The notes beneath the pieces were generated by a model. The model was given only the letters and a program-made list of their open reading frames with translations, had not been told where the DNA came from and ran no database searches. The position numbers and the translations under genes are program-made. Below, in pieces: positions 344-11,722 of a stretch of DNA of 36,077 nucleotides (position 1 is its first letter; every line of letters begins with the position of its first letter). Source of the DNA: Eubacteriales bacterium (GTDB lineage: Bacteria; Bacillota; Clostridia; Lachnospirales; Lachnospiraceae); assembly GCA_030524715.1 (NCBI GenBank), contig JAUNGB010000057.1:1-36077 (forward strand), given 5' to 3'.

Positions 344-1849
344 ATGAAGAGAATCAACGCAATTTATGCAAGACAGTCAGTGGACAGACCAGATAGTATT
401 TCTATCGAAAGCCAGATTGAGTTTTGCAAATATGAATTGAAGGGAGGGAGCTTTAAAGAGTACAAGGATAGAGGATACAGCGGGAAGAATACAGTGCGTC
501 CGCAGCTTCAGCAGTTACTGCAGGATATCCGGCGGGGAGAGATTGCAAAAGTTATCGTGTATAAGCTGGATAGAATCAGCAGATCTATTCTGGATTTTTC
601 GAATATGATGGAACTGTTTCAGGAGTATCATGTGGAGTTTGTATCGTCTACAGAAAAGTTTGATACATCCACTCCAATGGGAAGGGCAATGCTGAATATC
701 TGTATTGTATTTGCACAGTTGGAACGTGAAACGATTCAAAAACGGGTAAGTGATGCGTATTATTCCCGCAGCCAAAAAGGTTTTCGTATGGGAGGGCGTC
801 CGCCGTATGGGTTTAATGCGGAGGAAGTAGTGATTCAGGGAATCCATACAAAGAAGCTTATAGAGGTACCGGAACAGGCGGAGCATGTAAGGAAAATGTT
901 TGAAATGTATGTGGAGCCAAAAACCTCATACGGAGATATTACCAGATATTTTTCGGCAGAAGGAATTCAATTTTACGGAAAAGATTTGATCCGGCCTATG
1001 CTTGCTCAGCTTTTGCGGAATCCGGTGTATGTACGTGCGGATAAAGAAATTTACCGTTTTTTTAAAAGTCAGGGAACGATAATTGTCAGCGGGGAAGAAG
1101 AGTTTGATGGTATTCATGGATGTTATCTTTATCAGGGACGTAACGTAAAGGAGGATAAGAATAAGAGCCTGAAGGGACAGATGTTGGTGGTGGCCCCGCA
1201 CGAGGGCCTGATTTCGTCAGATTTATGGCTGCGCTGCCGCATCAAGCTTTTTGCAAATCCCACGATACAGGCAAATCGTAAAGCTGTGAATACCTGGCTT
1301 GCTGGTAAAATTAAATGCGGCAGATGCGGATATGCCCTGATGAGTGTAAAAAGTCGTTCCGGAAGACAGTATTTACGCTGTGTGAAACGTTTGAATAATA
1401 AAGCATGCCCCGGTTGCGGAAAAGTTTATACAGCGGATGTTGAAGCTTATGTGTATCAGCAGATGTTGGACAAACTGCGGGAAAATCAGACTCCAATTGG
1501 TTATACTCAATCCAATCAGAATCCGCGTATCAAAGAGCTTAGTGATGAATTGGACGAACTGGATGAGGAAATCGAGCGCCTTATAGATTCCTTAATTGGT
1601 TCCGGAGAGACGTTGACGTCTTATATTAATAAGAGAGTAGAAGAACTGGAAACAATCCGTCAGGAAAAAATGAATGAGATTATTGTACAAATGGGAAAAA
1701 CAACTTCCCCTGAGCAATTGGAGAAAATAGTGGCAAGCATCAGTGATTGGGAACATGCGGGATTTGAGGAAAAGCAGTTTGCTCTTGATAAGCTTGTTAC
1801 CACAGTAAAGGCTACAGAAATGGGGACAGAAATTATCTGGAAAATTTAA
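344..1849 (+). CDS. Large serine recombinase (site-specific integrase/resolvase family)
   Basis: A 501-aa large serine recombinase that would catalyse integration or excision of a mobile element through a 5'-phosphoserine intermediate. The resolvase catalytic domain spans about 1-145, with the nucleophile Ser12 in YARQS and the conserved LDRISR at 75-80. The recombinase DNA-binding domain begins near GRPPYGF (151-157). A zinc ribbon follows with Cys325, Cys328, Cys346 and Cys355/358, and then a coiled coil at about 395-447. The ATG has a strong AAAGGAGG site. Length and domain order are complete, so it looks functional. It is followed by an endolysin-like gene with no other phage genes, suggesting a minimal cassette or the remnant edge of a prophage or integrative element. 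The family call is firm; the element type is inference. Confidence 0.95.
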   Translation: MKRINAIYARQSVDRPDSISIESQIEFCKYELKGGSFKEYKDRGYSGKNTVRPQLQQLLQDIRRGEIAKVIVYKLDRISRSILDFSNMMELFQEYHVEFVSSTEKFDTSTPMGRAMLNICIVFAQLERETIQKRVSDAYYSRSQKGFRMGGRPPYGFNAEEVVIQGIHTKKLIEVPEQAEHVRKMFEMYVEPKTSYGDITRYFSAEGIQFYGKDLIRPMLAQLLRNPVYVRADKEIYRFFKSQGTIIVSGEEEFDGIHGCYLYQGRNVKEDKNKSLKGQMLVVAPHEGLISSDLWLRCRIKLFANPTIQANRKAVNTWLAGKIKCGRCGYALMSVKSRSGRQYLRCVKRLNNKACPGCGKVYTADVEAYVYQQMLDKLRENQTPIGYTQSNQNPRIKELSDELDELDEEIERLIDSLIGSGETLTSYINKRVEELETIRQEKMNEIIVQMGKTTSPEQLEKIVASISDWEHAGFEEKQFALDKLVTTVKATEMGTEIIWKI

Positions 1850-1978
1850 CGGCTGAAATATAGAATACAAAAAGTTATTATTGTTATACCCCTTGCGATA
1901 TTCACCGTTCGCAGATTCTGAACAAAATTTCCGCGTTTGCATATTTTATCAAGAACAATATTGTTATGGTGGATGATT

Positions 1979-2971
1979 ATGGATATAAAAGGTATTGACG
2001 TCAGCGCATTTAATGGCGTGATCGATCATAAAAGGGTTGCGGAAGACAGGGTGAAAATTGCAATATTGCGCATTACGGAACGAGGAAATACAGTTGATCC
2101 TACTTTTGAGGCTAATTATAGCGGATTTCGTACGGCAGGCATTAAAATGGGGGTATATAAGTACAGCTATGCTTTAAAGACCGCGGAGGCGCAGGAAGAG
2201 GCACGAAAGGTAATAGAAGCTTTAAAGGGAAGACCATTAGAATTTCCGGTATTTTATGATATGGAATGGTCTCAGCAGAGACAGCTTCCCAGGGAGGAAG
2301 TGACGGCAATTGTGGAGGCATTTCGTAATGTTATCGTAAAAGCCGGTTATTTGTTTGGAATTTACTGTAATACAGACTGGTATTACCATGTGCTGGATAC
2401 AGCAAAGCTGCCGTATGATTATTGGTTGGCTGCTTATCCTTATAATGATCGTGGTACGATCGTTGAATCCCTGCGCCCTCCGGTAGGAATTGGCTGGCAG
2501 TACAGTTCAAAAGGCAGGGTGGCAGGAATTTCGGGCAATGTAGACATGGATGTATTTTATAAAATGTATGAAACTGTAAAGCCGGATGAAAAATATATAA
2601 TTTATATAATCAAAAAAGGAGATACACTGGCAGCTATTGCCGATGAATATCATACAACGGTACAAGAACTTGCAGAACTTAACAGTATCGAGAATGTTAA
2701 TTTAATTATAGCCGGGCAGACGTTAAAAGTTCCAGGGGAAACAAGGCCATATAAAAAATGGGTGGGCAAATGTACTGGCAACGGCGTTAACGTACGGCGT
2801 GGACCCGGTTTAGAATATACGGCAATAGAAGGGTATCCATTTCTGAATAAGGGAAATCTTGTGGATGTTATCGGAGAGAAAACTGCACTTGATAAGGAGG
2901 TATGGTACCATATCCGGGTAGCAGAAAAATATGAAGGATATGTTCGCCATGATTATATCGAAAAAGTGTAA
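1979..2971 (+). CDS. GH25 lysozyme with LysM and SH3 domains (endolysin-like)
   Basis: A 330-aa N-acetylmuramidase that would cleave peptidoglycan. The GH25 domain covers about 1-200, with Asp7 in GIDVSAFNG and the catalytic pair Asp94/Glu96 in FYDMEW. A LysM domain (about 207-252, [13 protein letters not shown]) and a bacterial SH3 domain (about 260-330, GVNVRRGPG) would bind the wall. No signal peptide is seen, as in phage endolysins that leave through a holin; no holin gene is nearby. I chose the ATG at 1979 because GGTGG lies 6 bases upstream and the protein then begins at the typical GH25 N-terminus; a TTG at 1937 would add 14 unlikely residues. Its position directly after the recombinase suggests prophage origin. 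Confidence 0.92.
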
Positions 2972-2985
2972 TATAATTTTCTTTT

Positions 2986-3013
2986 TTGACAAAATTGTTC
3001 ATAATGTTATAGT
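2986..3013 (+). promoter_or_regulatory. Predicted sigma-A-type promoter of spmA
   Basis: TTGACA (2986-2991), 16-bp spacer, TATAGT (3008-3013). The -10 box lies inside the right copy of the 11-bp repeat, so if that repeat is an insertion junction the -35 box is supplied by the mobile cassette. In Bacillus subtilis spmA belongs to a sporulation-controlled operon, so a vegetative-type promoter here would be odd. Confidence 0.5.
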
Positions 3014-3014
3014 T
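3004..3014 (+). repeat. Right copy of 11-bp direct repeat (ATGTTATAGTT)
   Basis: Identical to positions 16-26. It lies 32 bases after the lysozyme stop and 47 bases before the likely spmA start. See the left copy for interpretation. Confidence 0.35.
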
Positions 3015-3061
3015 TTGGAATACAATGATAAAAATTGAAAAGAATGAACCGGGTAGAAGAG

Positions 3062-3655
3062 ATGACTTATTTGTGGAGCGGTATGATTTTGATTGGAATT
3101 TTTTACGGAACGCTTACAGGAAATCTTCAGGAGGTTACAGATGCGGCAGTGGCTTCCTCAAAAGAAGCAATTCAGCTTGCCTTTGCTATGGCAGGAATTA
3201 CTGCTATGTGGACCGGATTAATGAAGATTGCGGAAAAAACCGGGTTAGTTGCTCAGTTGTCCCGGGGGCTGCGCCCTGTTTTAAAAATTTTATTTCCGAG
3301 GCTTTCTCCCGATTCTAAAGCCGGCAGTTATATTTCTCTGAATTTTCTTGCTAATTTCCTGGGGCTTGGCTGGGCGGCGACGCCTGCGGGATTGAAGGCG
3401 ATGGAAGAACTGGAGAAACTGAAAGAGAAAAAGGGAGATACGCCCCGTGATGTGGCGAGTAGTGAAATGTGCACTTTTTTGATACTTAATATCTCGTCAT
3501 TGCAGCTCATTCCGGTCAATATCATCGCTTACCGGGCTCAGTACGGGAGCGTGAATCCGACGGCAATCGTAGGGCCGGGGATACTGGCGACGGCGGTGAG
3601 TACAGCGGTGGCTGTCGTGTTTTGTAAGGTGATGGATCGAAGAAAGAATAGTTAA
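3062..3655 (+). CDS. spmA: Spore maturation protein A
   Basis: A 197-aa integral membrane protein of the nucleoside-recognition (Gate) family, close in length to B. subtilis SpmA. SpmA acts with SpmB in spore core dehydration. Recognisable family stretches are FAMAGITAMWTGLMKIAEK, LSPDSKAGSYISLNFLANF followed by GLGWAATPAGLKAMEEL, and a C-terminal IVGPGILATAVSTAVAVV membrane segment. The start is uncertain: ATG at 3062 gives the family-like N-terminus MTYLWSGMILIG but has a weak Shine-Dalgarno; ATG 3044 or TTG 3035 would add 6 or 9 residues. Its normal partner spmB is not adjacent but 6.6 kb downstream, beyond an accessory gene block. Confidence 0.9.
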   Translation: MTYLWSGMILIGIFYGTLTGNLQEVTDAAVASSKEAIQLAFAMAGITAMWTGLMKIAEKTGLVAQLSRGLRPVLKILFPRLSPDSKAGSYISLNFLANFLGLGWAATPAGLKAMEELEKLKEKKGDTPRDVASSEMCTFLILNISSLQLIPVNIIAYRAQYGSVNPTAIVGPGILATAVSTAVAVVFCKVMDRRKNS

Positions 3656-3715
3656 ATTTAAATGAGTTTACCTGACGACGATTCGGTCTACACCCTGAAA
3701 AAAGTAAATAAAGTG

Positions 3716-3741
3716 TACCAGAGAAAGTGTGTTTTCTGGTA
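3716..3741. other. Imperfect hairpin downstream of spmA
   Basis: TACCAGA and TCTGGTA form the base of a stem-loop about 60 bases after the spmA stop. It has no strong U-tract, so its role as a terminator is uncertain. It lies at the presumed left boundary of the accessory insert. Confidence 0.35.
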
Positions 3742-3818
3742 TACAAATTAAGAGAAAACTGATAAACTTATTTTAGTAACAGAACGGCTGCACTTATTAT
3801 GAAAAGAGGCTGAAAGTA

Positions 3819-4973
3819 ATGTCATATTACCTGAAGAATTTTGATGAAATATTACTTGAATTTACAATTGGGAAAACAGGACTTGAAGAACGTGTAACAG
3901 AAATCTATTACGTAAATGAAGAAAAAAAACATCTTCTTCCTGCAGGGTTGGAGTTATCCGTAAACGGGCTTACAAAATGGCTTCAGCGCCGTAGTATACC
4001 GAAGAACAGAGCTTTTGTACATGAGATTCTCGCTGCCTATGGTCTGAAGCAGGGAGATTTTAAAGGAATTATTGATATCTGTAAAGGATTGTCTGTAAAT
4101 GACAGTTACTGGATCGTGGATTCCGAATTTAAGGGCAGCTTTCAGGATTACAATTTGTATGATAATTCGTTTTCAGAAGCATTGGCATTAGTTGCGTATA
4201 CTGGTTATAATACGTCTATTCGGGAATTATCTACTTCGCCGGAATTTACCACTGCAGGAATGCTTCCAAAAGCATGGAGGAGAATAAACGGAGAGATATT
4301 TCTATATAAAGGTGGGACGAGAGGATTTGCGAATTCCGGAATGGAACCATATAGCGAATTTTATGCTTCGCAGATTGCAGAAAGGATGAATCTCCACCAT
4401 GTTTCCTACGGATTGGAACAATGGAAAGGAATCCTGGCGTCAACCTGTAAACTATTTTCGACGAAGGATGTGTCTTATGTACCTGCAGGGCTTATTGTAA
4501 AGGAAGGCGGAATGGATGCGGTAATTGATTTCTATAGGCGGTTAGGCGAAGCGTGTTTTGAAGAACTTGCAAGTATGCTTGTATTTGATGCCCTGATTTA
4601 TAATGAAGACCGACATTATGGAAATTTCGGACTTTTAAGGGATAGCCATACAGGAGAATATATAGGGTGCGCTCCGATTTTTGATAATGGATATTCTTTA
4701 TTTGCAACTGCAATGAAAAGTGATCTGGAAAAGATAAATGCGTATGCGGAAGAAAGAAGTTATGCTTCCTGTGGAATCCTGCATGATGAACTGGTAAAGA
4801 ACCTGTGCGGTCCCAGACAGCAGGAACAGTTACGGCATATGATTAATTTTAAATTTGCCAGACATTCACAGTATAATTTACCGGAAGAAAGGCTGGTTGT
4901 CCTGGAAAGCTTTATTAATCAGCGTGTAGAAGAATTATTGAAGATGCCGAAGAAAATAATGCCAAGCCCATGA
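3819..4973 (+). CDS. HipA-like kinase-fold protein (orphan)
   Basis: A 384-aa protein that I place in the HipA-like Ser/Thr kinase superfamily. It has an N-terminal segment with LTKWLQRRSIPKNRAFV (51-67), a probable ATP-binding lysine in FLYKGGT (Lys163), the catalytic-loop motif YNEDRHYGNFG (261-271; Asp264, His266, Asn269) and a metal-binding IFDNG (288-291; Asp289). Classical HipA toxins phosphorylate glutamyl-tRNA synthetase and are paired with a HipB DNA-binding antitoxin; no HipB-like gene is adjacent, so function is open. The gene looks more AT-rich than spmA and the ATPase operon, which fits separate acquisition. It converges on the minus-strand helicase, with a perfect inverted repeat between them. 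Confidence 0.75.
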   Translation: MSYYLKNFDEILLEFTIGKTGLEERVTEIYYVNEEKKHLLPAGLELSVNGLTKWLQRRSIPKNRAFVHEILAAYGLKQGDFKGIIDICKGLSVNDSYWIVDSEFKGSFQDYNLYDNSFSEALALVAYTGYNTSIRELSTSPEFTTAGMLPKAWRRINGEIFLYKGGTRGFANSGMEPYSEFYASQIAERMNLHHVSYGLEQWKGILASTCKLFSTKDVSYVPAGLIVKEGGMDAVIDFYRRLGEACFEELASMLVFDALIYNEDRHYGNFGLLRDSHTGEYIGCAPIFDNGYSLFATAMKSDLEKINAYAEERSYASCGILHDELVKNLCGPRQQEQLRHMINFKFARHSQYNLPEERLVVLESFINQRVEELLKMPKKIMPSP

Positions 4974-4980
4974 CCTTTAG

Positions 4981-5021
4981 AGCGTGTTTGAAAATTGCGG
5001 GAATGAATTTTCAAACACGCT
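4981..5021. repeat. Perfect 16-bp inverted repeat between convergent genes
   Basis: Left arm 4981-4996 (AGCGTGTTTGAAAATT), 9-base loop, right arm 5006-5021, fully complementary. It sits between the HipA-like stop (4973) and the helicase stop (5054, minus strand). It may act as a bidirectional terminator through the A/T-rich inner arm, although no U-tract follows on either strand. The half-site recurs at 13842-13858 upstream of ispE and, in altered form, at 35171-35189. Confidence 0.7.
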
Positions 5022-5053
5022 TCAGGCCGTGGGCAGTTGACATGAAAGCGTTG

Positions 5054-6622
5054 TTAGGATAATAACTCTGCTATTTTCTTCATGCATATCCAATAATTTT
5101 TATCCTCCGTATGTCTTGCCGATTTTATTTTGTTGCTGATATTGCCATATCCTGACATCCAGTCGGAGCGGATACATCCAAGGCGCAGGCAGCGCCGGGC
5201 TTCTGAGAGCTTGTCCGCGCTTGCCCCTTTAGATTTCATTTCGGCTAATAATTTTGCCGCGGCCCTGTCATAGAGGGGATTTTTAAATTCCCGGGTGTCA
5301 GAGAGATATTCCAGTTCAAATAAATGGTCCTCTCCGGAATTGGGGAGAAAACATCTATCCTCTATGGTGTCCTTCAGGTGCAGATAGTACAGAGAAGCCC
5401 TGTCTTTTTTCTCTTTTTTCCGGATGACGCGGCCCAGACGCTGGATACGCTGACGTTGTACGGAGGTTCCGGAGAGAATGATCCCTACGGCCGCATCCGG
5501 GATATCAATTCCTTCATCCATGGATTTGCAGGCGATCAGAATACGGATTTCGCCGTCACGGAAGCGGTTCAGAGTGTTTTTGTTTGCCAATGGACCGATT
5601 TTTGAATGGCAGCGCCCTACTTTTTCCGGGTATTGTTTCTGCAGAAGCTGATAAAGCTCTTCAGCCTGGCTGATGCGTTCTCCGAAAATAATGATCTTTT
5701 CAGAAAGCTGCAACCTTTCTATTAAAGCGCACGCACATGCAATTCGGGCGGACGCCAGGCAGATCAGGGTTCTTCTTTTGTAAGAAAGCTTTATATACAG
5801 AGAGGCCGTTTCTGCGAGCTTACGGTTCTGGCCGCCTGCGAGAACCGTAAGCATATCAAAAAGCTCTTTTTGGTTCATATCTCTTAAGAAGGGATCCATC
5901 TGAAGCAGCCTGCGGTATAGAGTTCCCATCCAATCTGTGATTTCCTGATACTCGTCGCTTTCTGTATGCTGAAAGGACAAGCTGATATGAAAGATATCAT
6001 ATTTGCACACGGTGTGCATTGCCGCCGCCTTGGTCATTCCATAGCTGTATATTTTTCGCCCGAGGACTGACGCAAGATAGCTTTGCGACTGGCCATGGGG
6101 CAGAGTTGCAGACAAACCCAGTGAGAAAAAACGGGTTTCATATGGCTGTATATATGGAAGAAATTCAAATATCAGGCGGTTTTGATCGCTTTCATAGCGG
6201 TGGCATTCATCCGCAATGAGAAGGACGGCGGCGCCGCTTCGGAGCTCAGATAAAATTTGCCTTGCCAGTTCGTACCGGGCTGAATTGATCACATAAATCA
6301 TATATTTGCGGTTGGATGAAGCTTTATATCCGGCGCCCCGCAGGCCGATCTCCCGTTGGATATCTGCCGGCTGGCGTTTATTACCGCCGGATTCCGCAAG
6401 AAAATTTCTTAGGGCCTGATTCCACTGGCGCATTAAAGCGCCGGTAGGAACAACAATCTTCACACGAAGTTCCTGATTCAGTTGTTTTTCCAGTCTTTCG
6501 GCTGCCGTCAGGGCAAGAAGAGTTTTGCCGGAACCGGTAACTGCCTGTACCATTCCTCTGCCATGATTTGCAAACCATCGTTCCAGACATTCCTCCTGCC
6601 ATTGATAAAGGACTTTTTTCAT
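5054..6622 (-). CDS. SF2 DEAD/DEAH-type helicase, BrxHI-like
   Basis: A 522-aa superfamily 2 helicase/translocase. Motifs in order: YQWQEECLERWF near the N-terminus, Walker A AVTGSGKT (27-34), DECH (138-141), LSATL (170-174), CKSMDEGIDIPDA (365-377) and QRIQRLGRVIR (391-401). The compact type-III-restriction/XPB-like layout resembles BrxHI helicases found beside BrxD ATPases in some BREX loci. It is transcribed away from the three-gene ATPase operon, and the 317-base gap between them must hold both promoters. No nuclease domain is visible. The C-terminal 100 residues are basic and unrecognised. The helicase call is firm. Membership of a system with the ATPases is inferred from proximity and from family precedent. 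Confidence 0.92.
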   Translation of the reverse strand: MKKVLYQWQEECLERWFANHGRGMVQAVTGSGKTLLALTAAERLEKQLNQELRVKIVVPTGALMRQWNQALRNFLAESGGNKRQPADIQREIGLRGAGYKASSNRKYMIYVINSARYELARQILSELRSGAAVLLIADECHRYESDQNRLIFEFLPYIQPYETRFFSLGLSATLPHGQSQSYLASVLGRKIYSYGMTKAAAMHTVCKYDIFHISLSFQHTESDEYQEITDWMGTLYRRLLQMDPFLRDMNQKELFDMLTVLAGGQNRKLAETASLYIKLSYKRRTLICLASARIACACALIERLQLSEKIIIFGERISQAEELYQLLQKQYPEKVGRCHSKIGPLANKNTLNRFRDGEIRILIACKSMDEGIDIPDAAVGIILSGTSVQRQRIQRLGRVIRKKEKKDRASLYYLHLKDTIEDRCFLPNSGEDHLFELEYLSDTREFKNPLYDRAAAKLLAEMKSKGASADKLSEARRCLRLGCIRSDWMSGYGNISNKIKSARHTEDKNYWICMKKIAELLS

Positions 6623-6757
6623 TTTATGATACCTTTATGTAAATGAGATTATTATTTTGATACAGTTTATCCTATGATCAATATCGAGGTTGATACGATT
6701 TCCTCCATGACCGCACCATTATTTTACCATGACAGGTTCATTTGTGAAACATTTTTA

Positions 6758-6786
6758 TTGAAAACAACTGCCGTTTCGTATATACT
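6758..6786 (+). promoter_or_regulatory. Predicted promoter of the three-gene ATPase operon
   Basis: TTGAAA (6758-6763), 17-bp spacer, TATACT (6781-6786). Transcription would begin near 6793, leaving a leader of about 147 bases before the first ATG at 6940, which contains the 10-bp repeats and the stems. Confidence 0.65.
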
Positions 6787-6800
6787 TTTTATAGTTTCAT

Positions 6801-6830
6801 ACTGTTACTTACTATTACTTATTATTACGG
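6801..6830 (+). repeat. Three consecutive 10-bp direct repeats in the operon leader
   Basis: Units 6801-6810, 6811-6820 and 6821-6830 read actgttactt, actattactt and attattacgg. The first two differ at one base, and the third shares its ATTAC core. A 10-bp period puts each unit on the same helical face, as expected for repeated protein-binding sites. Confidence 0.5.
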
Positions 6831-6939
6831 CTGCTAACCGGCAGTGTTTGTGAACATACGGAACAGATATTATTTGTTTCGATTCTGCCTGCGGCAGCGG
6901 AACTCTTTTACAATCTCATAAAACAAAGGATGAAAATAA

Positions 6940-7707
6940 ATGAATTACGAAGATTTTTATTTAAGTATGCAGCCTCAGAACAAGACGGTAAAAGACAGTC
7001 TGGCATCTCTGCAGAAGCTCTTTAAGGCGATCAGCCGGGAAACCGAAAGCGGAGACGTCAAAAGCCTCACCCGGGATCTGAATGCTATGGCGGAGGCGGC
7101 TGCTTCCGTTTCCGCGGCGTTGGACGGAATGAAGGATACGATATCAGGTTTTGATACCAGAGCTTATTTTGAAAGCGGGGAATTTGCAGAGCAGATGCTT
7201 TCCGCCTGCCGGGAGCAGGGCGTGGATGTGCGCGGAGATTTCCCGGTTTATGAAATGTTCCCTTACCGGGTGAAGTTGGATACGGAAAATCAGGATATCT
7301 ATCTTGACCGTAAAAAAGTGCAGTGTATGCGTCCGCAGAGCTTTGTCGAGACTGTCAGAAACGGGCAGGAAAAGCTTAATAAGGCTCCGTTTAAGGCGGC
7401 TGTTTTTGTTAATGAGCTTGCCGATGCTTATGATCTTGCTGCTTTGAAGCTGAATAAGAATCCGGAGTCGGATATTTATCTGACCAGTCTGTATAAATTC
7501 CTGGCTCCCATGAGCCGTTTCAGGAAGGACTATGACCAGCAGAGCTTTGCATTTGACCTTGCAAGGCTGTATGCCTCAGATGTGGAAGAAACGAAAAACG
7601 GAAGGAAGTACCAGTTCGGTCCCAGCAGGAACCAGAACAAGGCCATCCGGATTTTGGACAAGGACGGACAGGAACAGTATCTTGCGACGATCCGCTTTTA
7701 TAAATAA
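6940..7707 (+). CDS. Unrecognised 255-aa protein, first gene of the BREX-like ATPase operon
   Basis: I do not recognise a named family. The first 75 or so residues are predicted helical with a possible coiled coil (QNKTVKDSLASLQKLFKAI and an Ala-rich stretch). The middle has a compact block, GDFPVYEMFPYRVKLD, followed by IYLDRKKVQCMRP. The C-terminal third is mixed and ends with RNQNKAIRILDKDGQ. There is no signal peptide, membrane segment, Walker motif or evident nuclease motif. It is followed 12 bases later by the first ATPase and is almost certainly co-transcribed with both. In comparable loci the first gene often supplies a structural or DNA-recognition subunit, but that is speculation here. 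Confidence 0.85.
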   Translation: MNYEDFYLSMQPQNKTVKDSLASLQKLFKAISRETESGDVKSLTRDLNAMAEAAASVSAALDGMKDTISGFDTRAYFESGEFAEQMLSACREQGVDVRGDFPVYEMFPYRVKLDTENQDIYLDRKKVQCMRPQSFVETVRNGQEKLNKAPFKAAVFVNELADAYDLAALKLNKNPESDIYLTSLYKFLAPMSRFRKDYDQQSFAFDLARLYASDVEETKNGRKYQFGPSRNQNKAIRILDKDGQEQYLATIRFYK

Positions 7708-7718
7708 GGAGAAGCACT

Positions 7719-8951
7719 ATGGAATCAGAATTCATTGAAAGAGAATTCATTGAAAGCCCGCAAAAGCTGCAGGGAAATGAAGAGCCGTGCGGCATTCCAA
7801 ACGGCAGGGAGTTTGGCTGCGGGGTTCGTTTTCTTACTGATTTCTGGCAGGAAAAGTACCTTCAGGAATATATCCGTGACGGCGGCAGCAAGATTAAATT
7901 CGTGACGGGCCGTCAGGGCAGCGGGAAAACATATTTTCTGCAGTCGATGATTTCCATTGCACAGAAAGAAAATTATAAAACAGTCTGGTTTTCTGCAAAG
8001 GATATCTGGATGCATGATTTTAAGGAAATTTATCTGGAGATTTTCCGTCAGTGCGACATTATGGAGTGCTTAAGCGCCGCAAGCCGTAAACTGATACGGG
8101 AAATGGGATTTGATGAGAACGATATTCCCGAAGGGATGAAATTTATTGATTATCTTTCCCAGAACGGGATGGGGGATGCGCTCACAAGAAGGGAGATCCG
8201 TTCGCTGCTGAAAAAGCTGTTTCTGGATAATCCCATGCTGGATAATAATTTTGCCCTGGCATGCAGCATGCTTACGGGAAGTATCCTTGGCTATCCTGTT
8301 CTGGAAGAGCAGAACCGTGATCTGCTTCTTGCATGGCTGGAAGGGGATCGGACCATAAAGCTTTCCCAATTACGGGCTTTGGATTTTTATCCCAGCCGGA
8401 TCACAAAATATAATGCAAGGCATATGCTCCGTTCTCTGGCGGAGGTTATCCGTATGGGCGGATATTCCGGGCTGTTTGTTGCTGTTGACGATCTGGAAAT
8501 TCTGATCAGCCGATCCAGTCTGGAACTGATCCATTATACTAAAATGAAGCGTGAAGATACCTATGAAAGCATTCGTCAGCTCATTGATGATATTGACAGT
8601 ATGAAGAATATCATGTTCGTATACGCCTTTGACCGGAAGCTGATAGATGACGAAAATGCCGGACTGAAATCCTATCAGGCGCTTTGGATGAGGATACAGA
8701 ACGAAATCGTGGGAGAGAGGTTCAACCGTTTTGCCGATATGGTGGATCTGGACCGGCTGGCAGCACAGGAATATACGCCGGAGGTGATCGTTTCCATATC
8801 GGAGAATATTGCACAGCAGCAGAAAAGCGCGCCGCTCTCGCCTCTGGATCTGAATGAGGCGGAAGAGCTTGTGCGGCAGGCGCATACCGGAGCTGTGGGC
8901 ATACCGGGATTGATTCAGATTGCTATGCAGGAGGTAAAAAAGGATGTATGA
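7719..8951 (+). CDS. BREX-type P-loop ATPase 1 (BrxC/BrxD-like)
   Basis: A 410-aa AAA-like ATPase of the BREX ATP-binding (DUF2791-like) group. Walker A is GRQGSGKT (64-71), Walker B LFVAVDDLE (252-260), and a sensor-like MFVYAFDRKLIDDE (299-312) is followed by ERFNRFADMVDLDRL (333-347), the type of arginine-bearing region seen in these ATPases. The first 30 residues are acidic and contain two near-copies of EFIE. The start has GGAG 9 bases upstream, 12 bases after the preceding stop. The last 8 bases overlap the next gene, so the two ATPases are translationally coupled and may form a heteromer. Full BREX loci pair such proteins with PglX and PglZ; neither is present here. Confidence 0.82.
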   Translation: MESEFIEREFIESPQKLQGNEEPCGIPNGREFGCGVRFLTDFWQEKYLQEYIRDGGSKIKFVTGRQGSGKTYFLQSMISIAQKENYKTVWFSAKDIWMHDFKEIYLEIFRQCDIMECLSAASRKLIREMGFDENDIPEGMKFIDYLSQNGMGDALTRREIRSLLKKLFLDNPMLDNNFALACSMLTGSILGYPVLEEQNRDLLLAWLEGDRTIKLSQLRALDFYPSRITKYNARHMLRSLAEVIRMGGYSGLFVAVDDLEILISRSSLELIHYTKMKREDTYESIRQLIDDIDSMKNIMFVYAFDRKLIDDENAGLKSYQALWMRIQNEIVGERFNRFADMVDLDRLAAQEYTPEVIVSISENIAQQQKSAPLSPLDLNEAEELVRQAHTGAVGIPGLIQIAMQEVKKDV

Positions 8952-10134
8952 TTTTGAGGCCAGACACATCATTGAAGCGCTGCGTTCAGGGGTTCCCTCC
9001 CGTGCTGTGGGACAGTACTTTTCGGAGGCGCGTCCCAGGATCATGAAGGAAATCTCAAACCGGCTGGACATGGTATGTGAGCAGGGGAAATCAAGCGGAA
9101 TGATCATCAGCGGAAAGTACGGGGAGGGGAAAACTCATCTGCTGAATACAGTGTTTAATCTTGCCCATTCCAATAACATGGTTGTTTCTTATCTTTCTTT
9201 GAGCAAGGAAACTCCTATGGATAAGCTTTATCTGGTTTATCAGAAGATTATACAGAATACATATCTTCCCATGCGCAGGCAGCCGGGCTTTATGCATGAG
9301 CTGGAAAAGATATCGGCCAACAGTCCGATAGCGAACGAGATGCTTTTGTATGCGGCAAAGCATCTGGAGACAGATAAGCTGTATTATCTTTTCCGTTCCT
9401 ATCTGAATACGGAGGACTCTGATGAAAAGTTTCTTCTGCAGGCAGATCTGGAAGGGGATTTTATTGCCAATGCTCCTTTGAAAAAAATATACCGCCGTAT
9501 TTTTAATCAGACGGTAAAATATAATGTAAACTTTACGAAAACCAGACATTGCGGAGATTATCTTTCTTTTATGAGCCATCTGTTTACGCAGATGGGGTAT
9601 CATGGATGGGTGATCCTGATCGATGAGACAGAGCTTATGGGACGTCTGGGAAAAAAAGCGCGGCTGAATGCTTACCGGAATATGGCGCGTTTTCTTCTTC
9701 CGGAGAAATGCCCGGAAGCTACTTTGAGTATTTTTGCGCTCAGCGCTTCCTACACAGAGGATGTGATCGAAGGAAAGCACGAGTATGAAAACCTGGAGGC
9801 TGTTTACCCGGATGAGCCGGAGCCTGCCAGAACCGTTTTGAATCTTCTTGCCGGAGCTCCGCAGCTTCTTCCTCTGACCAGAGATGAAATTAATGAAGTA
9901 TTATATAAGATACAGGACTTTCATGGGAGAGCTTATGGCTGGAATCCGGATCTTTCCATAGATACTTTGGCGGAGTCTACGCTGTCAGGAGGTTATCTGC
10001 TCCGCACAAAGATACGTGCGGCTATCGAATTTCTGGATCAGCTTTATCAGTATGAGAAGGTTGGAAAAACAACCATCAGTGAACTGGGCAAAGAAGTCTT
10101 TACAGAAGACGTCCCCTCTCTGGAGGGATTTTAA
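8944..10134 (+). CDS. BREX-type P-loop ATPase 2 (BrxD-like)
   Basis: A 396-aa ATPase that matches BrxD-like proteins well. The N-terminal signature is ARHIIEALRSGVPSRAV (6-22), Walker A GKYGEGKTH (57-65), Walker B WVILIDETELMG (222-233), and near the C-terminus GGYLLRTKIRAAIEFLDQLY (349-368), typical of the family. The ATG overlaps the end of ATPase 1 by 8 bases and has GGAGG upstream. It ends 88 bases before spmB with no terminator in between, so read-through into spmB is possible. The function is presumably nucleotide-driven DNA sensing or remodelling together with the helicase and the 255-aa protein. The family is well supported and the role is inferred. Confidence 0.87.
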   Translation: MYDFEARHIIEALRSGVPSRAVGQYFSEARPRIMKEISNRLDMVCEQGKSSGMIISGKYGEGKTHLLNTVFNLAHSNNMVVSYLSLSKETPMDKLYLVYQKIIQNTYLPMRRQPGFMHELEKISANSPIANEMLLYAAKHLETDKLYYLFRSYLNTEDSDEKFLLQADLEGDFIANAPLKKIYRRIFNQTVKYNVNFTKTRHCGDYLSFMSHLFTQMGYHGWVILIDETELMGRLGKKARLNAYRNMARFLLPEKCPEATLSIFALSASYTEDVIEGKHEYENLEAVYPDEPEPARTVLNLLAGAPQLLPLTRDEINEVLYKIQDFHGRAYGWNPDLSIDTLAESTLSGGYLLRTKIRAAIEFLDQLYQYEKVGKTTISELGKEVFTEDVPSLEGF

Positions 10135-10222
10135 TAAGAGTGAAATTAATGGACAGAATAGCCCGGGCCGTGCATATAATCTACAGAGAATGTGATAAAA
10201 CAGGTTCAAAACCGGAGGGAAT

Positions 10223-10750
10223 ATGAAAGCAGTTTCTTATCTGTCTAATCTTATTATTCCTTTTTTGTTGTTTTATGTGATCGGCTTCGGGTTGCTGTCA
10301 AAGCGGGATATTTACAGTGATTTTCTGGACGGCGCCAAAGACGGTCTGAAAACCGTTGTGGGAATTGTTCCCACGCTCGTGGGGCTTATGACCGCTGTGG
10401 GAATCCTCCGTGCCTCCGGGTTCCTGGATTTTCTGGGCGGACTTCTGGGAAAGCTGACGGAATATATCGGTCTTCCGCCCTCCCTTGTTCCGCTGTCTCT
10501 TGTCCGGATGTTTTCTTCCAGCGCTGCAACGGGACTGCTGCTTGATATTTTCAAGGAATTCGGGACGGACTCCAAGGTGGGATTTATGGCGGGGATCGTC
10601 ATGAGCGCCACAGAAAGCGTTTTTTATTGTATGAGTCTTTATTTCAGCTCCGTAAAAATACGGAAGACCAGATATACGCTGCCGGGAGCGCTCCTGGCTA
10701 CGCTCGCCGGGATTGCCGCGGCAGTATGGATCACAAACTGCCTGATATAG
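10223..10750 (+). CDS. spmB: Spore maturation protein B
   Basis: A 175-aa polytopic membrane protein of the nucleoside-recognition (Gate) family, matching B. subtilis SpmB in length and pattern. Diagnostic stretches are DFLDGAKDGLKTVVGIVPTL, GLPPSLVPLSLVRMFSSSA, and MSATESVFYCMSLYFSSVKI. It acts with SpmA in spore maturation. The ATG follows CCGGAGGG. A TATAAT at about 10175 might be part of its own promoter, but no good -35 matches it, so it may be transcribed from the upstream ATPase operon. It is separated from spmA by the accessory insert and followed by a strong stem-loop. Confidence 0.92.
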   Translation: MKAVSYLSNLIIPFLLFYVIGFGLLSKRDIYSDFLDGAKDGLKTVVGIVPTLVGLMTAVGILRASGFLDFLGGLLGKLTEYIGLPPSLVPLSLVRMFSSSAATGLLLDIFKEFGTDSKVGFMAGIVMSATESVFYCMSLYFSSVKIRKTRYTLPGALLATLAGIAAAVWITNCLI

Positions 10751-10768
10751 GAGAGGGTCATGAGGACA

Positions 10769-10815
10769 AAAAATAAGAGCCGACAAACGAAGCTGTTCTG
10801 TTGGTTCTTATTTTT
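10769..10815. terminator. Bidirectional terminator between spmB and plsC
   Basis: Stem of about 17 pairs, including G-T pairs: AAAAATAAGAGCC (10769-10781 region) against GGTTCTTATTTTT (10803-10815). A-tract and U-tract at the two ends make it usable on both strands, serving spmB (plus) and plsC (minus). Confidence 0.8.
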
Positions 10816-10819
10816 GTGG

Positions 10820-10873
10820 ATTATACATTTTTTTGTAGCTTATACATCTTTTAGTGTTTATACATCTTTTTTG
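10820..10873. repeat. Triplicated TTATACATYTTTT at the 3' end of plsC
   Basis: Three copies of TTATACAT followed by T-rich sequence occur about 20-25 bases apart. The last one encodes the C-terminal residues and stop of plsC on the minus strand. It looks like local tandem duplication of the gene end. Confidence 0.6.
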
Positions 10874-11598
10874 TTCTTGATGATCATTTGGCGGATAATG
10901 TTCTGGGTATAAGCGCCCAGCTTTTTTTTGTCCTCTTTATTTAACTGTTCCGGATAAATGGGTTCCCCATACTCAAGGATCACATGGCACGGTTTGACTT
11001 TGGGGGAATGAGCTTCCCAGATCTGCGCCGTATTATTCAGAGCAATGGGAATAATGGGACAGTTTGCTCTTGTTGCGATTTTGAAGCTTCCTTCATGAAA
11101 GGGAAGCATGTCTTCATCGTTCTCATTGCGGTTTCGGGTGCCTTCCGGGAAAATACAGATGGAAATTCCGGATTTTATTTTTTCTATGGCTTCCAAAATA
11201 GTTTTCAGGCCCTGCTTGATATCCTGCCGATCCAGAAACAGACAGTGCAGGTACCGCATCCAGTTGGAAAGCAGAGGGAATTTTTCCATTTCTTTTTTGG
11301 CCACATAACCTGTCCGGATAGGGCAGCGGCTGTAGGTCAGAAGAATATCAAAATAGCTTCTGTGGTTCCCTATGTAAAGGACAGGGGTATCTTTGGGTAC
11401 ATTTTCTTCTCCGATGACCGTTACCTTCACTCCTGTGAGAAACAGGATAAACCGGAATACTGCCTGAATGATCCGAAGAGAACTGATATCCTTGGCATAA
11501 GGCGCGAATTTGCCAATGATCCATTCCACAAGCAGAATGGGGATGGATAAGATCAGGAAGCCGACGACAGTGATACAAACCAGTATAAAACGTATCAT
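10858..11598 (-). CDS. plsC: 1-acyl-sn-glycerol-3-phosphate acyltransferase
   Basis: A 246-aa membrane-associated acyltransferase making phosphatidic acid from lysophosphatidic acid and an acyl donor. An N-terminal hydrophobic anchor (1-24) is followed by the catalytic HX4D motif in NHRSYFD (78-84), then FPEGTRNR (150-157), which binds the glycerol phosphate. Length is normal for PlsC. I chose the ATG at 11598, which has an AAAGGAA site and starts at the membrane anchor; an upstream in-frame ATG at 11691 would add 31 residues with no hydrophobic character. It is transcribed divergently from the PrcB-like lipoprotein. Confidence 0.93.
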   Translation of the reverse strand: MIRFILVCITVVGFLILSIPILLVEWIIGKFAPYAKDISSLRIIQAVFRFILFLTGVKVTVIGEENVPKDTPVLYIGNHRSYFDILLTYSRCPIRTGYVAKKEMEKFPLLSNWMRYLHCLFLDRQDIKQGLKTILEAIEKIKSGISICIFPEGTRNRNENDEDMLPFHEGSFKIATRANCPIIPIALNNTAQIWEAHSPKVKPCHVILEYGEPIYPEQLNKEDKKKLGAYTQNIIRQMIIKNKKDV

Positions 11599-11722
11599 AA
11601 ACAGTAAATTCCTTTCTTTAGAATACTTGCAGTTATTATTATAATGATTTTTTGAAATACTTGCAATAAATCTTTTGGTCATTACATACAATAAATACTA
11701 AGGAACGGATAGGGGCTGCACT

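Follow-up and report, generated by a model that had tools for sequence, protein, structure and literature searches.

The 36,077-bp contig JAUNGB010000057.1 of a Eubacteriales bacterium of the Lachnospiraceae, which was analyzed in its entirety and is called the window here (contig C195; source genome 5.28 Mb, estimated contamination 5%), raises the question whether two ATPases related to those of the bacteriophage exclusion (BREX) systems form a system of their own together with the helicase and the protein of no named family that are encoded beside them. A first-pass annotation had described a stand-alone system of four genes, namely an unrecognised 255-aa protein, two coupled BrxC/BrxD-type ATPases and a divergent superfamily 2 (SF2) helicase, which we call U255, ATP1, ATP2 and HEL (Table 1). 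The open reading frames (ORFs) and the matches to PF10923 and to ResIII/Helicase_C agree with this gene set. The genes do make up a unit without pglX or pglZ as parts, but their conserved core is the trio U255-ATP1-ATP2; the helicase is specific to the lineage and exchanged for other motors elsewhere. We propose that the constant trio and a variable ATP-driven DNA motor, here HEL, could be one modular system, a defence core working through its motor, and our confidence in this reading is about evenly balanced by our doubt.

Conservation and distribution of the trio

With U255 alone as bait and one genome per species, the best 80 of 86 relatives were collected (referred to below as near loci). 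U255 is followed by ATP1 and ATP2 in 77 of them, and in the remaining three the contig stops within 1.3 kb. HEL adjoins the trio in 72 of these 80 loci, and in five (L042, L075, L076, L081, and L082) it has been moved or turned and still lies beside the trio, showing that the linkage is not merely an inherited layout. Among the eight near loci without HEL, four have U255 within approximately 730 bases of the contig start and L043 shows a 44-residue fragment.

The same arrangement was found in wider samples. U255 is present in 18 of 398 Bacillota genomes (source genome included), and ATP1-ATP2 adjoin it in all 17 fetched loci with a firm U255, down to approximately 20% identity. In the class of G267, U255 occurs in 42 of 151 genomes, at 45 places of which 40 were fetched, three were already included (L119, L120, and L123) and two (G956 and G860:C161) were left out; the full trio is present in 36 of the 39 fetched loci with a firm U255, the other three being cut by contig ends. 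In the window's own class U255 was found in 6 of 391 genomes; apart from the window, this adds five complete loci, of which L205 is the same place as L054. Counting L054 and L205 once, U255-ATP1-ATP2 is complete in 134 of 140 distinct loci (135/141 before merging), a recurrence well beyond chance, and the other six end at a contig edge. Two loci were excluded from the 140: L124 (G104), with a U255 match of E 1.7e-4 and no adjoining ATPases, and L203, with a U255 frame of E 6.9e-8, although ATP1, ATP2 and a more distant BrxL gene are present there.

With ATP2 as the query, 18 of the 398 Bacillota genomes had a match at E<=1e-30, and 17 of these carry U255. The 18th (G346) has lost U255 and the N-terminal halves of ATP2, ATP1 and HEL, whose C-terminal pieces remain next to one another as a deletion remnant. 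Therefore no intact ATP2 without U255 exists in this sample. Two more genomes gave weak ATP2 matches (1e-11 to 2e-14), a level expected for BrxD-like relatives. The co-occurrence that a four-gene system implies is thus borne out from either bait for the trio, and in the near loci for the helicase. Closer to the source, U255 is present in 4 of 61 genomes in a sample of relatives (own genome included), all within the genus, and in the three other carriers it is accompanied by ATP1, ATP2 and a divergent HEL. The trio is common to gut Lachnospiraceae and distant relatives. Cultured carriers of the four genes include Blautia schinkii DSM 10518 (L056) and Schaedlerella arabinosiphila DSM 106076 (L034). 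The ratio of nonsynonymous to synonymous substitution rates (dN/dS) was 0.035-0.22 across 11 close pairs of relatives; the window is not among these pairs, HEL is included in seven of the 11, frames were taken from stop to stop, and dS is very low in one pair (L178-L183).

The proteins and their relation to known systems

Both ATPases match PF10923 (BrxC_BrxD) above the Pfam cut-off, with E-values of 3.5e-31 for ATP1 and 1.6e-26 for ATP2, as expected from the first-pass annotation, and they are the sole PF10923 matches found in the source genome. They match the PADLOC BrxD profile at 1.6e-19 and 1.1e-14 and the SngB profile about as strongly, at 1.3e-17 and 2.5e-14; SngB-like proteins of relatives reach approximately 1e-123. 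With 68.5 and 52.6 bits, ATP1 and ATP2 stay below the NCBIfam BrxD equivalog cut-off of 350 bits, and the PADLOC BrxC profile matches ATP2 at 0.019. As in ORC/Cdc6-like AAA+ loaders, Walker A and Walker B appear intact by eye in both proteins, with TGRQGSGKT and the Walker B-like VDDLE in ATP1, and SGKYGEGKT and IDETE in ATP2. In pattern scans of the two families, 125 of 132 ATP1 proteins have Walker A and 99 have Walker B; among 133 ATP2 proteins the motifs were found in 120 and 132, respectively.

U255 is the hallmark protein of the module. It has no family in Pfam, NCBIfam or PADLOC (E to 0.1) or in PHROGs (E to 0.01), although the protein family is conserved, with identity falling to about 20% in the most distant members. 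AlphaFold2 predicted its fold from 67 rows with a pLDDT of 90.1 and a pTM of 0.76, where an earlier model from only four rows had been poor (pLDDT 63). The prediction shows a helical hairpin at the N-terminus (residues 3-69) and an alpha+beta part after it. Against the PDB, the sequence gave nothing better than E 0.42, and the model had no PDB or viral-model match at E<=0.001, the alpha+beta part not being searched by itself. In the structural alignment rows the hairpin alone was matched, to generic coiled coils. TerB or another known domain was rejected as an identity for U255, since no profile match was obtained, although by profile it could still be a very divergent TerB. With U255 as marker, annotation tools could detect many loci in Bacillota that now carry no label.

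HEL is a complete SF2 protein with matches to ResIII (5.7e-22), Helicase_C (1.4e-17) and ERCC3_RAD25_C in Pfam, and an alignment of four relatives shows a C-terminal extension of approximately 110 aa. The first-pass annotation had called it BrxHI-like. This label was rejected: the best profiles are PbeA (6.8e-61, PADLOC) and TIGR04095 (2.6e-42, NCBIfam), the best solved structure is RAD25/XPB (8.7e-25), SngC and BrxHI are absent among the best 25 of 47 PADLOC matches, and a BLASTP comparison with a relative's SngC/BrxHI-type helicase gave E 2.0. The alignment to PbeA covers residues 252-627 of PbeA only, and no PLD/PLDc or any other nuclease family was found in HEL by Pfam.

How close is the module to BREX? 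The module shares with BREX (the BrxD-BrxHI dyad of types 2/6 and BrxL of types 1/4) the PF10923 ORC/Cdc6-like ATPases and their pairing with an ATP-driven DNA motor, and the motor varies between BREX types as it does between lineages of the trio (PMC12839542, PMC13326643). BrxD is described in PMC12839542 as an ORC/Cdc6 AAA+ ATPase that is tightly linked to BrxHI and suggested to be its loader or activator, BrxL in PMC10164562 as an MCM-like, DNA-bound AAA+ ring, and some other BREX types have helicases instead of BrxL according to PMC13326643. The module differs from BREX in having two ATPases and U255 and in having no BrxC of approximately 1200 aa, no PglX and no PglZ, and from BREX types 2/6 in that HEL is of the XPB/PbeA type and BrxHI is Ski2-like.

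There is no methyltransferase or PglZ in the module. No match to a methyltransferase (PglX/BrxX) was found among the ten proteins of window positions 344-11691, the rest of the genome not being searched for PglX, and no methyltransferase is among the 25 commonest families listed for 133 flanking proteins of near loci. PglZ (PF08665) has no match in the source genome. Among 79 carrier genomes, PglZ matches at E<=0.001 were found in 23 (21 of them above the cut-off) and none in 56. The contigs of the module and of PglZ could be compared in 38 genomes, the 41 others (nine with PglZ) having been reached through loci; 14 of the 38 have PglZ, in 13 of them solely on other contigs; the exception is G232, where PglZ and the L115 trio are 14 kb apart on one contig. 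A consistent link of pglZ to the module was not found. These observations bear on the possibility that the locus is a reduced or decaying BREX-type locus that has lost its methyltransferase and PglZ. The PF10923 membership of both ATPases, the BrxL gene after the trio in one class (see below), the decayed remnant in G346 and the surroundings of L115, where a BrxC-PglY gene (DUF6079) also lies near the trio, this being one distant locus, could be taken that way; but the genes are constrained in the tested pairs, U255 is in no BREX profile of NCBIfam or PADLOC, and PglZ is so often missing or located elsewhere that we give this explanation little probability.

Ter-linked ATPase/helicase gene sets are predicted to process DNA in stress or defence, and the module resembles them in combining ATPases with a helicase, although U255 has no Ter-family match. 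The module also resembles Shango, for which we take SngA (TerB), SngB (ATPase) and SngC (helicase) as the names of the parts, following PADLOC. ATP1 and ATP2 match the SngB profile weakly, and five related loci have SngB-SngC beside the trio. According to PMC10250203, Shango consists of a TerB protein, an ATPase and a helicase, and the likeness lies in a compact ATPase and helicase system without modification enzymes. In the module, however, no TerB domain was found by profile, there are two ATPases instead of one, and HEL is not SngC. The helicase part of HEL is nearest to PbeA of PbeABCD (described in PMC6459918 and PMC10853773), from which it differs in that the PLD/HKD domain was not found in HEL. 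A CxC ABC ATPase (PbeC) and a DndE-like PbeD had no match among the proteins of window positions 3819-10134 (five) or 344-11691 (ten). HEL as a part of PbeABCD was rejected on these grounds. No description of the trio was found in the open-licence PubMed Central literature, outside of which one may exist, and the accessible text of PMC12839542 does not mention it. Judged from sequence comparison, the module appears to be an undescribed relative of the BREX/Shango-type ATPase-motor systems with a family-less hallmark protein.

Exchange of the DNA motor and a proposed function

In the 140 distinct loci the gene near the trio is HEL in 78, BrxL in 20, an SNF2 gene in five, cas genes in four and the BrxC-PglY gene in one, and further reference comparisons added SngB-SngC in five and a superfamily 1 (SF1) helicase in two. 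The remaining 25 loci have no identified partner, several of them being cut by contig ends. BrxL lies directly 3' of ATP2 in 19 of 39 loci in the class of G267, and the BrxL frame abuts or overlaps that of ATP2. BrxL_ATPase was matched in Pfam at 1.2e-90 in L120 and 2e-91 in L172, and the other BrxL loci were assigned by sequence similarity; L119 was counted as motor-less, though by eye its last ORF resembles the start of BrxL. A DpdF-like helicase is additionally present in five BrxL loci. Where SngB-SngC occur, L199 has matches of 8e-123 and 1e-168 to the respective profiles. The cas loci form one clade of four, with Cas1 and Cas3 genes in L111-L113 and a Cas6 gene in L114 beside the trio.

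Some of these loci have further peculiarities. L193, L194, L196, L199, and L202 contain the six-gene row P298-SngB-SngC-U255-ATP1-ATP2, in which the unrecognised protein P298 occupies the place where SngA (TerB) would be expected in a Shango-like row. The SF1 helicase is encoded directly upstream of U255 (L175:9061-12144 and L201:4930-7968), and in L175 it has a C-terminal PLD match below the cut-off (1.4e-4), making it the sole motor here that hints at a nuclease domain. In L111-L114 the trio is located inside or beside CRISPR-cas loci, and a small protein in L111 and L112 is presumably DUF4282-like. In L122:3874-8574 three more genes continue downstream of the trio on its strand. They encode an unknown protein, one that looks HSP70-like by eye and one of 545 aa that had no PADLOC match, and no motor was recognised there. 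The trio of L115, L118, and L121 is preceded by a long XRE-type helix-turn-helix protein (by Pfam in L115, by similarity in the others), possibly a regulator.

On a tree of ATP2 with 75 rows, the motor types need 14 changes, where the minimum possible is seven and the mean after shuffling is 43.2; therefore the motor is stable within a clade and varies from clade to clade. The tree samples 21 of the 80 near loci and not the window itself, and long branches make its deep joins uncertain. The HEL clade comprises 27 rows with a support of 98/99 and has copies from Sphaerochaeta (Spirochaetota) inside, which suggests that the HEL-type module has been transferred between phyla. It is conceivable that the trio alone is active and that the adjacent motors are incidental neighbours, and loci such as L071, L073, L080, L179, L180, L187, and L190-L192, which show no recognised motor despite having room for one, would fit such an arrangement. 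This is rather improbable, however, since 72 of the 80 near loci retain HEL, rearranged ones included, about half of the loci of the BrxL-rich class have BrxL immediately after ATP2, and the motor type follows the ATP2 tree.

The likeliest mechanism of a modular system of trio and motor would be the following. ATP1 and ATP2 would form a heteromeric ORC/Cdc6-like AAA+ assembly, and U255, which is first in the trio and kept with it, is a likely coiled-coil adaptor or DNA/target-sensing subunit. On invading DNA, whether phage, plasmid or replication intermediates, they would jointly load or activate the motor, which would strip, unwind or block replication of this DNA without a dedicated nuclease or a modification mark. 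The HEL version shows no evident nuclease, so that the DNA would more probably be obstructed or unwound there than cleaved, unless a host nuclease finishes the process. A loader with exchangeable motors is the simplest reading; the motor exchange around a constant ATPase pair parallels that between BREX types. That the module acts on foreign DNA is fairly likely. The order of events in the loader model by itself is tentative, and we would sooner doubt than trust it. Slightly more speculative still is the idea that the trio is the constant core of a new, motor-driven class of immunity. In it, a single heteromeric AAA+ loader would serve interchangeable motors (XPB-like, BrxL, SNF2, SngBC, and SF1) and would recognise foreign DNA by its state, for example as intermediates of replication or transfer; self would not be marked, and most versions would have no nuclease of their own.

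The defence role is indicated indirectly, by the association of the trio with known defence genes in related clades (BrxL, SngB/SngC, cas genes, and the BrxC-PglY gene), by its patchy presence and by the likely inter-phylum transfer. Several observations weigh against it. HEL-type loci have no recurrent defence neighbours among 133 flanking proteins, which were taken out of 178 from at most 45 of the 80 near loci after 15 proteins above 700 aa, 18 chosen at random and 12 more had been dropped. In PADLOC at 1e-10 few of them were matched, with mad3 in four, PDC-S01 in two and DrmC in two cases and single matches to Wadjet jetA, jetD, a reverse transcriptase, Cas1 and a homing endonuclease among the best 25 of 86 families, and the 25 Pfam families listed as commonest are metabolic, transport or regulatory. 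U255 was found neither in plasmid records nor, by a pattern scan, in IMG/VR, and ATP2 had no match in phage records and one weak match in plasmids (32% identity over 26% of the query). U255 is absent from all 36 genomes of the genus sample with at least 90% completeness and at most 5% contamination, the three other carriers of the genus being 78-83% complete. Finally, HEL is not nearby in the near loci L071, L073, and L080, and no motor is recognised near the trio in at least seven of the 39 loci of the BrxL-rich class (L179, L180, L185, L187, and L190-L192).

Another explanation is that the module is an accessory of cellular DNA repair or replication restart whose XPB-like helicase and ORC-like pair act on the host chromosome. 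It agrees with the mostly non-defence surroundings of HEL-type loci, with RAD25/XPB being the best solved relative of HEL and with the strong purifying selection on the module genes. A housekeeping role of this kind is nevertheless unlikely in view of the sparse presence in the genus sample and in the class, the likely transfer to Spirochaetota and the occurrence of the trio elsewhere beside BrxL, SngB-SngC or cas genes.

How BREX-family ATPases and motors such as BrxL, BrxHI and SngC stop phages is still debated. The module offers a minimal natural version with three constant genes and one exchangeable motor and no methyltransferase or PglZ in the unit, so that the loader-motor idea can be tested with four genes, and evolution has supplied the motor-swap comparisons.

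Gene layout and surroundings of the module

Table 1 Features of the module in the window and of a decayed relative.
Feature	Position	Strand	Remarks
HEL, XPB/RAD25-PbeA-type SF2 helicase	5054-6622	-	522 aa; ORF list and profile searches
Divergent intergenic region, HEL/U255	6623-6939	both	promoter-like sites
U255, hallmark protein without a named family	6940-7707	+	255 aa
ATP1, BrxC/BrxD-family (PF10923) AAA+ ATPase	7719-8951	+	410 aa
ATP2, second BrxC/BrxD-family (PF10923) AAA+ ATPase	8944-10134	+	396 aa
Decayed HEL-type module	L244 (G346:C6:1-9000), about 885-2488		deletion remnant

The frames of ATP1 and ATP2 overlap by 8 bp, with the ATP2 start codon within the end of ATP1, making translational coupling plausible. 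Five promoter-like sites (four on the plus and one on the minus strand) were found in positions 6600-6960, compared with a mean of 2.2 (sd 1.4) in shuffled sequence. A search of the gap between HEL and U255 for repeats gave weak ones only and no shared operator; a long palindrome seen in L008 is absent from the window, and a shared operator was rejected.

A gene for a HipA_C-like protein kinase (3819-4973; below the Pfam cut-off, PADLOC PDC-M03A 1.8e-17) adjoins the module. It was rejected as a fifth member, as it is absent by the module in the three other carriers of the genus and not recurrent in the near loci. Further upstream, a serine recombinase gene and a GH25-LysM-SH3 lysin-like gene (344-2971) precede spmA and are possibly mobile-element remnants. 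Together with the likely inter-phylum transfer they could point to a role of the module in addiction, maintenance or self-transfer of an integrative element instead of in anti-phage defence. This we find very improbable, since the ORFs of at least 80 aa that surround the unit in the 80 near loci include no recurrent integrase or transfer gene, and U255 had no match in the plasmid or IMG/VR searches.

The module and the HipA_C-like gene sit between spmA-like and spmB-like genes (3035-10750). Among 22 spmB loci of the same genus, spmA abuts spmB in eight (L217-L223 and L229), and by eye others have HTH/peptidase/PIN-like genes, a glucosidase, a MATE transporter or carboxypeptidase-like genes between the two. 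Since the cargo differs, the spmA-spmB junction is a variable insertion site, and a homologue of the recombinase is also found near spmA in L222.

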